Shown here in pieces: positions 32,189 through 35,475 of a stretch of DNA of 64,000 bases. The position numbers and the translations under genes were made by a program. Location of the stretch: the NCBI GenBank assembly GCA_017434525.1, contig JAFRFD010000086.1, positions 1-64,000 of the forward strand, written 5' to 3'. The DNA is from Methanobrevibacter sp. Lineage in GTDB: Archaea > Methanobacteriota > Methanobacteria > Methanobacteriales > Methanobacteriaceae. The notes under the pieces were generated by a model. The model did not search any database, was not told the origin of the DNA, and saw only the letters and a list, made by a program, of their open reading frames with translations. Within the stretch, counting starts at the first letter, position 1. Each line of letters starts with the position of its first letter.

Positions 32189-32470
32189 ATGGGATTTTGT
32201 AATTCATGTGGTAGGCCTATTGTAAAAGAAGATTATGGGACTAACAAAGATGGGAGCCTTAATCCTGAGTTTTGTAAAGATTGTTATCAAGACGGAGAAT
32301 ATACAGAACCAGATATAACTCTTAATGAAATGATTGTTAGAAAAACAAAAGAGATGATGGAAAAAAATCCAAGATTGCCAGAAACTCAAGCAACTGGTAT
32401 TACTGCGATGTTTATTCCTGGGTTAAAAAGATGGAATCCTGAATTTCAGGATGATTACGAAACTTTTTAA
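32189..32470 (+). CDS. Putative zinc-ribbon protein (Zn_ribbon_2 type)
   Basis: The 93-residue protein begins FCNSCGRPIVKEDYGTNKDG and continues NPEFCKDCYQDGEYTEPD, i.e. two CxxC pairs separated by about 24 residues with the conserved Gly-Thr-Asn and Asp-Gly-Glu-Phe/Tyr. This is the pattern of the small zinc-ribbon family often found in archaea and Firmicutes. Function is unknown. GGAG precedes the ATG. It converges with the coiled-coil gene, overlapping it by 4 bases. Confidence 0.75.
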   Translation: MGFCNSCGRPIVKEDYGTNKDGSLNPEFCKDCYQDGEYTEPDITLNEMIVRKTKEMMEKNPRLPETQATGITAMFIPGLKRWNPEFQDDYETF

Positions 32471-33321
32471 CTTTTACTTTTTAAAATAAATTCTTTAACT
32501 TTATTGGCTATATACTCGTCACGGGATTTGGTAGTTTTAATGTTATATAGCTCTTCTTCTAATGCATTGTATTTGTCAACTAAATCGTTGTATTCAAGGC
32601 GAAGAGAATCATAATCTTTTTCTAAACCTTCATTAAGTTCATACATTTCGGCATAGCTTGTTTTAGTGTTAAGATTTTCTTGTTTTAATTGATCATATTT
32701 TGAACTTACCTGGTTGTAACTTTCTTTAATAGAGGAGTGTTCTTCTCTTAGAGTTGAGCATTTTGTTTTAAGATTTTTGTTTTCTTCTTTAATGCTTGAA
32801 TATTTGGTTTTGAGGTTTTCATTTTCAGTTTTTATGTTAACGAATTTGGTTTTGAGGTTTTCATTTTCAATGATTAATTTTGAATGTTTGTCTCTGATTA
32901 AATCATTTTCATGCTTTAAGTCGTTAATGTTATCTTTATGCAAAGTATTAAATTTATTTTCCATTTCAGCTAATTCATTATTCCTTTGAGCAAGTTCAGC
33001 TTTTAAATTTTCAATTTCACTTTGAAACTCTAAAGCAGATGGGTTTAAATTTTCTTCTAGTTGTTTTTCCAATTTTTTCACTTCCTCAATATATAAATAA
33101 TTAACTATCTTTAATACCTGGTTTTCTTCCTCTATACTTTTAAAATTTTCAATTTCGGATTGAGGTATGATTAATACTTCTTCTTTATTTTCGTAGATAT
33201 CCTCATTTTTCGGTACTGTGATTTGGATTTGCTCTGTTGTGTACTTTTTCCTCTCACCGTTTTTTAGAGTTCTATTATACTCCCGTGAATATTTCTTTAC
33301 AATACCTTTACCTACTTTCAT
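32467..33321 (-). CDS. Coiled-coil protein with 14-residue repeats
   Basis: The 284-residue protein has a small basic N-terminal beta-rich domain (residues 1-60, GKGIVKKYSREYNRTLKNG and EEVLIIPQSEIENF) followed by a long coiled coil to residue 270. Within it three consecutive 14-residue units share the core ENLKTK or KNLKTK, for instance ENENLKTKYSSIKE. The start is the ATG at 33321 with GAGG upstream; a TTG two codons earlier is weaker. It may be a structural or tethering protein. It is divergent from the secreted protein at 33634. I do not recognise a family. Confidence 0.65.
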   Translation of the reverse strand: MKVGKGIVKKYSREYNRTLKNGERKKYTTEQIQITVPKNEDIYENKEEVLIIPQSEIENFKSIEEENQVLKIVNYLYIEEVKKLEKQLEENLNPSALEFQSEIENLKAELAQRNNELAEMENKFNTLHKDNINDLKHENDLIRDKHSKLIIENENLKTKFVNIKTENENLKTKYSSIKEENKNLKTKCSTLREEHSSIKESYNQVSSKYDQLKQENLNTKTSYAEMYELNEGLEKDYDSLRLEYNDLVDKYNALEEELYNIKTTKSRDEYIANKVKEFILKSKS

Positions 33322-33327
33322 ATTCAA

Positions 33328-33633
33328 ATCCTCATTTTTATGATATGTTTTTTTATAATTATAAATCTTATCCTATTTCAAGATTGAAGTGACATCATAA
33401 TCTTATTGAATTTAGACAATATTTTATTCATTTTCATTTTTTCAGATTTTTTTCATTAAATGTAAAAATTTTTAAGTCTGAAATACTATACTATATTTGT
33501 ATAAATTTTTGTATGGCAGTGATAATCTCTAGTGTATTGTTGCTGTATAAATTTTTATGGTGGTGATAAGACTAGTTAAATGATTAAAGTTGCTGTATAA
33601 ATTTTTATATATTAATTGTGGGGGTAAAAAAAT
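33328..33633. other. Divergent intergenic region
   Basis: This 306-base stretch separates the coiled-coil gene from the secreted-protein gene. The right half holds the three tandem promoter-like units. The left half is AT-rich and must carry the coiled-coil promoter, though I cannot place a single TATA box with confidence. I see no RNA gene. A 17-codon frame at 33513-33566 lies within the repeat and is probably chance. Confidence 0.5.
33498..33613 (+). repeat. Three tandem promoter-like units
   Basis: The core TGTATAAATTTTT occurs three times, starting at 33498, 33544 and 33594. The first two copies are followed by ATGGCAGTGATAA or ATGGTGGTGATAA, which resemble ribosome-binding sites, and copies two and three are preceded by TTGC. 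Copy spacing is 46 and 50 bases. The core reads as a TATA box. The array ends about 20 bases before the ATT start of the secreted protein. It may be duplicated promoters or remains of a repeated gene start. Confidence 0.65.
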
Positions 33634-35475
33634 ATTAAAAAACTATTAGCTCCACTTATAATTATTAGCGTTTTGCTTATAGTAAGTATAAGCGGAGTTT
33701 ATGCAGAAGATATAGATGTCGAGTCATCAGTCGTGACCGAAAGTCCGATTTCTGCTGATGTTGATACAAGTTTATCTTCCTGTAATGCTTTTAATGACGA
33801 TTTATCTAATATTTATGAACCTTCGGATTCATCTAATTCATATGGATCATTTGATTCGTATGGTTATTTTGGATCTTCGGATGTACCTCAAATTAATGAA
33901 AAAATTGGTTATACCCTTCTTAATTCATACGGCTATTATGAATCATACAACGGTAAGGTAATTGATGTTGAGTATAATAATATAGATTCATTTGAATCTG
34001 TGGATGTGCCTGTTGTCGATGTTGATTACTCCTTTGGTGGTACACTTGGCTTTTGTGAATTTGTTGATGGAACTGTAACTGATATTGATGTTGATTATGT
34101 AGATGTTAATTATGGCGCATTGAAAATGCCTATGATTGATGTGTATGATGAGGAAGGTGAATTAAATCAAGCAATTAAGATTGTTGATGATAATGTTATT
34201 ATAAATAATTATAATAGTTTTTCTAGAAATATTTTAGAAAATATTCCTGTTTCGACTAAAGAAAATTTAAATCAACGCGCCAGTGTTGATATAAATGTTG
34301 TCGACACGATTATATCTGAAGTTACTGATGATATGGGAACTTCTGAAAGTTATAAATTAATTAGAGATGTAACTCAAGCAGATAATTTACTTAAATTTGA
34401 AAATGTTGATGCTATTTTAGCTATAGATGTGTCTAGCGTACCAATGGCTAGTGAGCCGGTATTCGATGGTATTTTAAGGGCATCTGAATATATTTCTAAT
34501 GTGGAAGAGGTATATTTCGGAACTTTATCTCAGGAGGATAATGAAATACTTTTAAAATCTATTGGTTCTGAAAACACATTATTGTTCGCAGGTATAGCTA
34601 ATTGGTATTCTGATGTAACATTTGAAAAGCTACAAAATTTAGCGAATCATGGACAAATCTGTGAAGATATCCTTGATGGTTGCACAGTTACTAAAGCATT
34701 ACTCCAATATTATCCGCTAACTAATGAATTATATATCTATAAACTTAGTAGCGATGAAGATGAACATAATCATGTAATTAATGATACTAACTCTCATGGT
34801 TTGGATTATGCATATGGGAAACACGTAGATGTGATCTATAAAGATATGCCTAATTTAATGGTCTTAACTTCCTATGGAGTTGTTTTTATTGAAAAACAAT
34901 TATCCGCAGGTTCTTGGGACAGTTTAAATGATGTTCTAGGGGCTAGAATATCAAGCGAAACTTTATTGCCGGATCATAAAGCAATATGGACTCCATTATT
35001 GTTGTTAAAACAACAAGATTTGCAAAAATCGGTTTTAGACAGTCATGCTGATGATAACGGGAAATTTAAAAAAATAAATGCTACAAATAAAATGGATAAT
35101 GATAATACGAACGGTTCTAATTCAAGCAATAAATCCCATAACGGTAAAGTTTACCAATGTTATAAGGAATGGCTTAATTGGGGACATTCAGGTCATTGTT
35201 GTCATTATGCAAGTGCTAATGTGGCTGCTTCCAGCAGTTCAGTTCAATTAGATAACATTAATATGAATTCAACTGGTAATTCAACTAAGAATTCAAAAAA
35301 GAATTCAACCAATAATTCTACTAATGTTACTAATGGAGGTATGAAGAAAAGTATCGGATCTCCGAAAACTAACGTGGAGGAAGCCGAACCGACATATACC
35401 TTGATATATGCGATCATTGGTATTGCAATTGTTTGTTATTTATTTAACTCAAGTTATATGAGACGTGATGACTAA
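33634..35475 (+). CDS. Large secreted membrane-anchored protein, apparent ATT start
   Basis: The protein has a signal peptide, an Asp/Ser/Tyr-rich region to about residue 200, an unrecognised folded middle part (about 220-420), an Asn/Ser/Thr-rich low-complexity segment and a C-terminal membrane helix with a short basic-acidic tail. A Cys/His group (VYQCYKEWLNWGHSGHCCHY) lies near residue 510. No ATG, GTG or TTG can start a full signal peptide: the frame opens after a TAA at 33625, and the codon in the right place is ATT at 33634, giving 613 residues beginning (M)KKLLAPLIIISVLLIVS, with GGGGGT upstream. A TTG at 33673 would cut off most of the signal peptide. Probably a surface protein; function unknown. 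Confidence 0.6.
   Translation: MKKLLAPLIIISVLLIVSISGVYAEDIDVESSVVTESPISADVDTSLSSCNAFNDDLSNIYEPSDSSNSYGSFDSYGYFGSSDVPQINEKIGYTLLNSYGYYESYNGKVIDVEYNNIDSFESVDVPVVDVDYSFGGTLGFCEFVDGTVTDIDVDYVDVNYGALKMPMIDVYDEEGELNQAIKIVDDNVIINNYNSFSRNILENIPVSTKENLNQRASVDINVVDTIISEVTDDMGTSESYKLIRDVTQADNLLKFENVDAILAIDVSSVPMASEPVFDGILRASEYISNVEEVYFGTLSQEDNEILLKSIGSENTLLFAGIANWYSDVTFEKLQNLANHGQICEDILDGCTVTKALLQYYPLTNELYIYKLSSDEDEHNHVINDTNSHGLDYAYGKHVDVIYKDMPNLMVLTSYGVVFIEKQLSAGSWDSLNDVLGARISSETLLPDHKAIWTPLLLLKQQDLQKSVLDSHADDNGKFKKINATNKMDNDNTNGSNSSNKSHNGKVYQCYKEWLNWGHSGHCCHYASANVAASSSSVQLDNINMNSTGNSTKNSKKNSTNNSTNVTNGGMKKSIGSPKTNVEEAEPTYTLIYAIIGIAIVCYLFNSSYMRRDD

Follow-up and report, generated by a model that had tools for sequence, protein, structure and literature searches.

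We found that the gene at positions 33634-35475 of the window (the whole stretch of DNA analysed, 64,000 nucleotides of a Methanobrevibacter sp. contig) very probably starts at an ATT codon, ATT 33634. AUU is here most likely a real and selected start, one of a set of AUU, AUC, AUA and ACG starts on genes for surface proteins. This reading follows from the conservation of the ATT, from the start codons counted in the protein family and from the pattern obtained when the start codon is left free.

Probable start site and leader of the window gene

A mechanical ORF list that allows only ATG, GTG and TTG starts opens the frame of the window gene at TTG 33673. Read from ATT 33634 on the + strand, the frame stays open for 613 codons, and the translation begins with IKKLLAPLIIISVLLIVSISGVYA-ED, judged by eye to be a full signal peptide. 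The full signal peptide of the predicted 613-aa protein is encoded only if translation starts at this ATT. The original prediction had said the same, and the translation from ATT agrees with it; its placing of GGGGGT at 33620-33625, TAA at 33625-33627, ATT at 33634 and an in-frame TTG at 33673 was also correct. No ATG, GTG or TTG lies between TAA 33625 and ATT 33634 in the window gene. The features of the gene and its leader are as follows.

33498..33516 (+): AT-rich leader repeat 1, TGTATAAATTTTTGTATGG, used as a 19-mer to search 67 genomes of the genus
33513..33566 (+): possible upstream ORF, MAVIISSVLLLYKFLWW, with a conserved start
33544..33560 (+): AT-rich leader repeat 2, TGTATAAATTTTTATGG, absent in this form from G020
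33594..33613 (+): AT-rich leader repeat 3, TGTATAAATTTTTATATATT, from the leader alignment
33620..33625 (+): GGGGGT, resembling a Shine-Dalgarno sequence (GGAGGT with one G-U pair) and unchanged across the aligned leaders of the six species
33625..33627 (+): in-frame TAA blocking any upstream start, from the sequence
33634..33636 (+): putative ATT start codon, with ATT at that position in 6/6 species having the gene
33634..33705 (+): predicted signal peptide, IKKLLAPLIIISVLLIVSISGVYA, first residue expected to be Met; from the translation, with the cleavage site placed by eye
33634..35475 (+): predicted secreted, C-terminally anchored protein of 613 aa, from homology to a family of 950-1020 aa
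33673..33675 (+): TTG, the first canonical codon downstream, rejected as start; codon 14, mid-signal peptide, inside the hydrophobic stretch
34147..35019 (+): stretch (residues 172-462) with homology to the first half of long relatives, which contains FmdE; from blastp against the L068 protein
35392..35445 (+): predicted C-terminal transmembrane anchor, from alignment of the tail with the long-form anchor; extent by eye

The spacer of the window gene is 8 bases after GGGGGT, or a gap of 9 counted from the last G of GGGGG. In sampled stretches, 800 kb in all, of two related genomes (G004 and G008), ATG codons behind a Shine-Dalgarno (SD) match of at least 6 stood at gap 7 in 46/116 cases and at gap 9 in 17/116, so the window gap falls within the range used by ATG and off its mode. 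The SD of the window gene (GGGGGT, gap 9) is weaker and further off than in most relatives: in the long relatives it is GGAGG or GGGGG, usually with a gap of 7, and in other surface genes it is GGAGGTGA with a gap of 7-8.

Orthologues were searched for in 67 genomes of the genus. The short protein was recovered over its whole or nearly whole length in six, the window's included, and one of them (G013) has two contigs with the gene. ATT occupies this position in all six species that carry the gene. A comparison with homologues was among the checks proposed by the original prediction, and its outcome, together with the family counts given below, strongly supports the claim that ATT initiates. 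The signal peptide features (basic residues, a hydrophobic stretch and a VYA/VSA site) are retained in the orthologues. An in-frame stop stands ahead of ATT, with two codons in between, in 5/6 short forms, and the sixth (G020) has TTG and GTG codons in frame upstream. The SD stretch and the ATT are unchanged in the six-species alignment while the protein diverges.

The orthologues also bear on whether translation truly starts at a canonical codon downstream, leaving the ATT stretch untranslated. TTG 33673 is in frame and heads the mechanical ORF list, but starting there would cost the signal peptide its basic n-region and half its hydrophobic core, and no SD was seen before it by eye. In two orthologues (L007 and L009) the first ATG, GTG or TTG does not come before codon 33, beyond the cleavage site, so TTG 33673 is not a conserved alternative; across relatives in general, the downstream canonical codons lie at differing places. 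We regard a start at this TTG, which the original prediction had set against its own reading and which is without counterpart in L007 and L009, as highly unlikely.

Gene order around the window gene is shared up to the end of every contig, with thrS, fae-hps, a small ORF, a divergent coiled-coil gene and the window gene, followed by genes for an FMN reductase, a MATE-type protein, a ModE-like regulator and hisB (the last three named by reading the sequences). The neighbouring threonine--tRNA ligase and fae-hps fusion are consistent with Methanobrevibacter. Orthologues share 42-72 percent identity with the window protein, against 78-97 percent for the syntenic neighbours, and the window protein therefore evolves fast. 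The dN/dS between short forms, 0.45-0.63, shows constraint of only moderate strength. The coiled-coil gene (32467-33327, -), whose frame opens at TTG, is 89-97 percent identical in the four orthologous loci with contigs reaching it, unlike its fast-evolving neighbour.

Some features of the assemblies were noted in passing. The window lies on contig C164 of a genome bin that is contaminated (7.93), and tRNA typing in this bin, which bears on a possible altered initiator tRNA, covered 30 tRNA loci. An identical copy of the gene (L035) is found in a contig filed under an Erysipelotrichaceae MAG, and contig C119 of the window's own bin (G000) holds a dense tRNA cluster of bacterial look (e.g. loci L171, L175 and L186).

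The original prediction had also noted a tripled AT-rich element upstream, and three copies of TGTATAAATTTTT were confirmed at 33498, 33544 and 33594. Five species keep the repeats, G059 and G060 with a few changes; the G020 leader is without the stretch from copy 2 to copy 3, reducing the repeats to two. On/off control with a tripled promoter, as had been suggested, finds no support in this conservation of the repeats in five species and of two copies in the sixth. Without mismatch, the 19-mer of repeat 1 occurs only before the window gene, in six genomes of 67, with four other sites at 1 mismatch, and it was rejected as a genus-wide element. A sigma-70 scan, with a model not meant for archaea, gave nothing above chance. 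The repeats may be TATA boxes or operator sites. An SD-like GGTGGTGAT follows copy 2 within 33498-33613, and the start of the possible upstream ORF, ATGGCAGT, is retained in 6/6 leaders with a peptide length varying from 6 to 17 aa; this ORF may encode a leader peptide or be a mere part of the DNA element.

If repeat 3 were a TATA box, the transcript could begin near the ATT and AUU would be read by a leaderless or near-leaderless route. The TATA-like repeat 3 (33594-33613) does lie some 20-40 bases ahead of the ATT, close to the spacing usual in archaea between TATA box and transcript start. Against this route, GGGGGT is invariant in the six species, long relatives carry GGGAGG at the same place, and no similar repeats were seen by eye in the 60 bases before the long ATT-start relatives. 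The route is accordingly improbable, and the SD-led start at ATT 33634 is the reading followed below.

Probable ATT starts in the FmdE-like family

No Pfam or NCBIfam match above cut-off was obtained for the window protein. In blastp against the long L068 protein, its residues 172-365 and 350-462 aligned with E values of 2e-27 and 7e-26, and of the second FmdE region of the long form just a weak match (E 0.004) is left. The long relatives, of about 950-1020 aa, in which a C-terminal anchor and a signal peptide can be seen by eye, are FmdE-domain proteins: the members tested (L068, L078 and L079) match PF02663 in two stretches, with E values of 5e-21 to 3e-16. The window protein aligns with their first half but, unlike them, has no FmdE match, as is also the case for the short forms L082 and L083, and it reads HGQICED where L068 has HGHICEG. 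Based on the unclear second FmdE region and this changed motif, the window protein is, as judged from sequence, a short, fast-evolving and reduced derivative of surface FmdE-domain proteins, and the original metal site has probably been lost. It shares with the adhesin-like proteins of Methanobrevibacter the plan of a large secreted protein with a signal peptide and an anchor; inspection of the sequence found both the signal peptide and the C-terminal anchor.

Our table of starts for the larger family has 52 entries, drawn from the genus as well as from further genera of its archaeal family: 32 are ATT, 18 ATG and 2 GTG. None of the 52 is ATA or ATC, and every Ile-codon start is thus ATT. The 32 genes were collected as ATT starts and agree in this by construction; what carries information is that ATA and ATC are missing from the 52. 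For comparison, the 32 genes have nine other columns with at least 90 percent Ile, of which eight mix ATT, ATA and ATC and the ninth is all ATT (24/24 Ile codons). The SD of these 32 relatives, counted by eye, is GGAGG in 20 and GGGGG in 12. No ATG, GTG or TTG stands between the in-frame stop and the ATT in 23/32; in 9 of these 23 a single codon separates a TAA from the ATT, eight times as GGGAGGCTAA. The other 9/32 have a canonical codon in frame upstream and for that reason are no proof of the start by themselves.

Several sequences were left out of the 52: L063/L216 of G006, with an ambiguous start, having in-frame ATT and TTG codons and no SD; L198 (G009), whose start was not assigned; L311 (G136), with its N-terminus out of frame; the second G013 copies (C49 and C50); the record copies L035 (window gene) and L036 (G020 gene); and weaker matches such as G006:C72 and G062:C1:514171. 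L310, the N-terminal piece of the G070 gene with an ATG start, was counted among the 52 and was too short for the tree. The gene in question (G070:C340, L235 and L310) is an FmdE-like surface gene broken by a TAA. Possible inverted repeats TGTATTC...GAATACA were seen by eye before several long FmdE-like genes (L070, L072 and L073) and are perhaps an operator.

A protein tree was built from 51 rows with the signal peptide excluded and a midpoint root used for drawing only. On it the ATT label needs 5 changes, compared with a mean of 15.7 for shuffled labels, and 0/500 shuffles were as low. ATT prevails in a group of 35 (30 ATT and 5 ATG) across several genera, and a more distant paralogue group starts with ATG (12) or GTG (1). 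From the few changes and the spread of the ATT group over several genera, ATT appears to be old in the FmdE-like family, with some switches to or from ATG.

These data also decide on the suggestion of the original prediction that an ATG-to-ATT mutation had silenced the gene, and on the T being a sequencing error. ATT does lie outside the starts allowed by common annotation. The same ATT in six species and in 32/52 starts of the family, long forms included, the open frames and the dN/dS given above leave this explanation with almost no credibility, and an error at 33636 in particular is excluded by the ATT of the other species.

Non-AUG codons at the apparent starts of other surface-protein genes

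A pattern scan for an SD, ATT and basic codons led to further secreted-type proteins with ATT. An earlier pattern with GGGG and a loose spacer had given 3 sites and was of no use, and a first signal-peptide scan was over-strict, returning mostly several offsets of one ORF. Two ATT-start genes gave a match to POMP repeats and a weak one, under the cut-off, to NosD. The second family recognised is a NosD-like surface protein of about 1,900 aa, named from its weak NosD match below cut-off. The search listed 30 places for it; of 25 loci in the genus one (L268) is cut at its 5' end and was omitted, and the 24 readable loci start with ATC (7), ATA (6), ATT (5) or ATG (6), with L265, where an ATG stands directly ahead of ATT, counted as ATG. 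GGAGG precedes 13 of the 18 Ile-codon starts at a gap of 7 or 8, and 12 of the 18 are without an in-frame canonical codon upstream. The remaining 6/18 have such a codon, in five cases a GTG within the SD itself, and because of it these six AUH (AUU, AUC or AUA) genes alone do not prove the start. L254, of this family, lacks a canonical codon upstream, and downstream it has no such codon ahead of codon 34. With L205 as query a third family was found, which has ATT at two readable starts (L237 and L238) and apparently TTG at L245.

We then left the start codon free in the pattern (GGAGGTGA, four free bases, any codon and two basic codons). The genus gave 39 sites, versus 7 for the reversed pattern. 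The codon at these 39 sites is ATC in 11, ATA in 5, ACG in 5, ATT in 4 and others in 14, and in no case ATG. Across the order (150 genomes), 59 sites lie outside the genus, with ATG 17, TTG 8, AAT 8, ATA 6, ATT 4, GTG 4, ATC 3, CTG 3 and others 6. ATG at gap 7 thus occurs in 0/39 sites of the genus and in 17/59 of the rest of the order (Fisher p 7e-5, uncorrected for kinship and a guide only, since related sequences are not independent).

Reading 30 of the 39 genus sites showed that 22 precede secreted-type ORFs of at least 240 aa, at gap 7 in 16 and gap 8 in 6. Their starts are ATA (9), ATC (8), ACG (3) and ATT (2); five of the 22 (L092, L274, L280, L289 and L293) also belong to the NosD-like family. 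Eight of the 30 are not long secreted-type ORFs: L275 (ATA) and L287 (ACG) resemble broken secreted genes, L296 (100 aa) has an ATG one base nearer the SD, at gap 6, and the remaining five are other sites. The secreted-type ORFs with an apparent ACG start behind GGAGGTGA are L276, L290 and L297 (position 1513). Two ACG-start ORFs resemble, by eye, proteins with an ATC start such as L277, and for this reason ACG and ATC may be interchangeable.

Six sites were read in other genera. ATT (L304, L305 and L306) and ATA (L301) precede secreted-type ORFs, L302 has ATA at gap 8 before a secreted-type ORF, and L303 has TTG; AUH starts are thus, by the five Ile-codon cases, not confined to the genus. An ORF in G004 (L122:7676, +), beginning IIHPRPSPIAATLYTLRD, has ATT or the next ATA as its apparent start behind GGTGAT. 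It is a possible non-secreted AUH start, on a product that we take to be nitrogenase-like.

These codons could also have arisen by neutral relaxation: a strong SD would make the start codon nearly irrelevant, and AUG would have drifted to AUH or ACG without a selected function. The free exchange of ATT, ATC and ATA in the NosD-like family fits such a drift, as does the association of prokaryotic GUG and UUG starts with a stronger SD described in parts of one survey (PMC5622118). The same drift is hard to square with the FmdE-like family, where ATT is the only Ile codon among the starts (32, against no ATA and no ATC), with the absence of ATG from the 39 gap-7 sites of the genus though it is one mutation away, and with the window gene, which retains ATT behind only a modest SD. 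We therefore hold relaxation to be unlikely as the explanation, and selection for the near-cognate codon remains the preferred one.

General use of AUH starts throughout the genome was rejected. In the 800 kb of sampled sequence from G004 and G008, with frames of at least 150 codons, gap 6-8 and SD at least 6, ATG took 71/120 positions, AUH and ACG together 8, and TTT alone 7. Of 604 ORFs in these stretches, 191 have an SD-anchored codon, among them ATG 80, TTT 9 and ATT 8. Because AUH and ACG stay at background level, such starts are special to some genes and do not reflect a loose genetic code.

Proposed initiation at AUU and known systems

At the window gene, the SD and an A-rich spacer would set AUU in the P site, where the ordinary initiator tRNA (anticodon CAU) would pair with it through the first two bases, and Met would be inserted as the first residue. 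By analogy with bacterial cases, the mismatch at the third base would be disfavoured by the initiation machinery (aIF1 in archaea), and the gene would consequently be translated at a fraction of the AUG rate, with an output depending on how strict start-codon proofreading is. We propose that a strong SD combined with a weak codon would make this proofreading the limiting step, and that the genes could thereby be coupled to the state of the initiation machinery. The wider set of AUU, AUC, AUA and ACG starts ahead of surface proteins, often with a full-strength SD, suggests that such a throttle acts on a class of these genes. More tentatively, and with somewhat less than even expectation, Methanobacteriaceae and above all Methanobrevibacter might possess a start-codon regulon, in which many surface genes carry a full-strength SD and a near-cognate codon starting with A (AUU, AUC, AUA or ACG); their output would be set by the stringency of aIF1, aIF1A and aIF2 and could rise and fall together.

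Starts other than AUG, GUG and UUG are regarded as rare in passages of a survey of 36 groups of related bacteria and archaea, where 1 AUG-to-AUU switch was counted among 61,358 ancestral AUG starts (PMC5622118). Among open-licence papers, no paper on AUU or alternative start codons in Methanobrevibacter was found, and no report of such genes was recognised among the matches listed for archaeal AUU, non-canonical or near-cognate starts. 'AUU' is absent from the available portion of a review of archaeal recoding (PMC8211752), and in the portions available of two Methanobrevibacter genome papers 'start codon' refers only to the base with which the genome begins (PMC2812497, PMC4987999). We found no prior report of AUU, AUC, AUA and ACG starts on a set of archaeal surface-protein genes with AUU conserved in one family. 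If the reading is true, the N-termini and signal peptides of methanogen surface proteins, which have been considered as vaccine targets against rumen methanogens in a genome paper seen in part (PMC2812497), are mis-annotated or missed; a class of genes would be read from codons that gene-finding software usually ignores, and would offer a natural test bed for start-codon selection in archaea.

The likeness to E. coli infC drawn in the original prediction is apt as to the kind of start: the AUU of infC lowers initiation, as proposed here for the window gene. infC is bacterial and encodes the factor (IF3) that censors its own start, whereas the window gene is archaeal and its predicted product is a secreted, FmdE-related surface protein and not a start-codon proofreading factor. 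In archaea the fidelity role is attributed to aIF1 in the sections available of two papers (PMC5472188, PMC6237735), the second of which describes aIF1 as destabilising archaeal complexes on non-AUG mRNA (PMC6237735). The GTC start of Streptomyces sigR is likewise rare and non-canonical, lowers output and was overlooked by annotation, as far as the account in PMC5472188 goes; it differs from the window gene in being GUC, bacterial and IF3-dependent. Staphylococcus aureus cvfC1 (AUU) and ccpN (AUA), whose SD is extended, resemble the archaeal set in pairing a conserved start with a strong SD; the SD of the window gene itself is the more modest GGGGGT at gap 9. In the available part of the S. 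aureus study, the two starts yield roughly 10 percent of the AUG level when the medium is poor, and in rich medium one gene reaches up to 30 percent (PMC13009471). Conservation of a non-AUG start across species, as in these two genes, was found here by comparison in 6/6 species and in 32/52 family starts. The S. aureus case comprises two genes and infC in a bacterium, with measured output, whereas the present one is an archaeal set of secreted-protein genes that includes AUC and ACG as well and is known from sequence.
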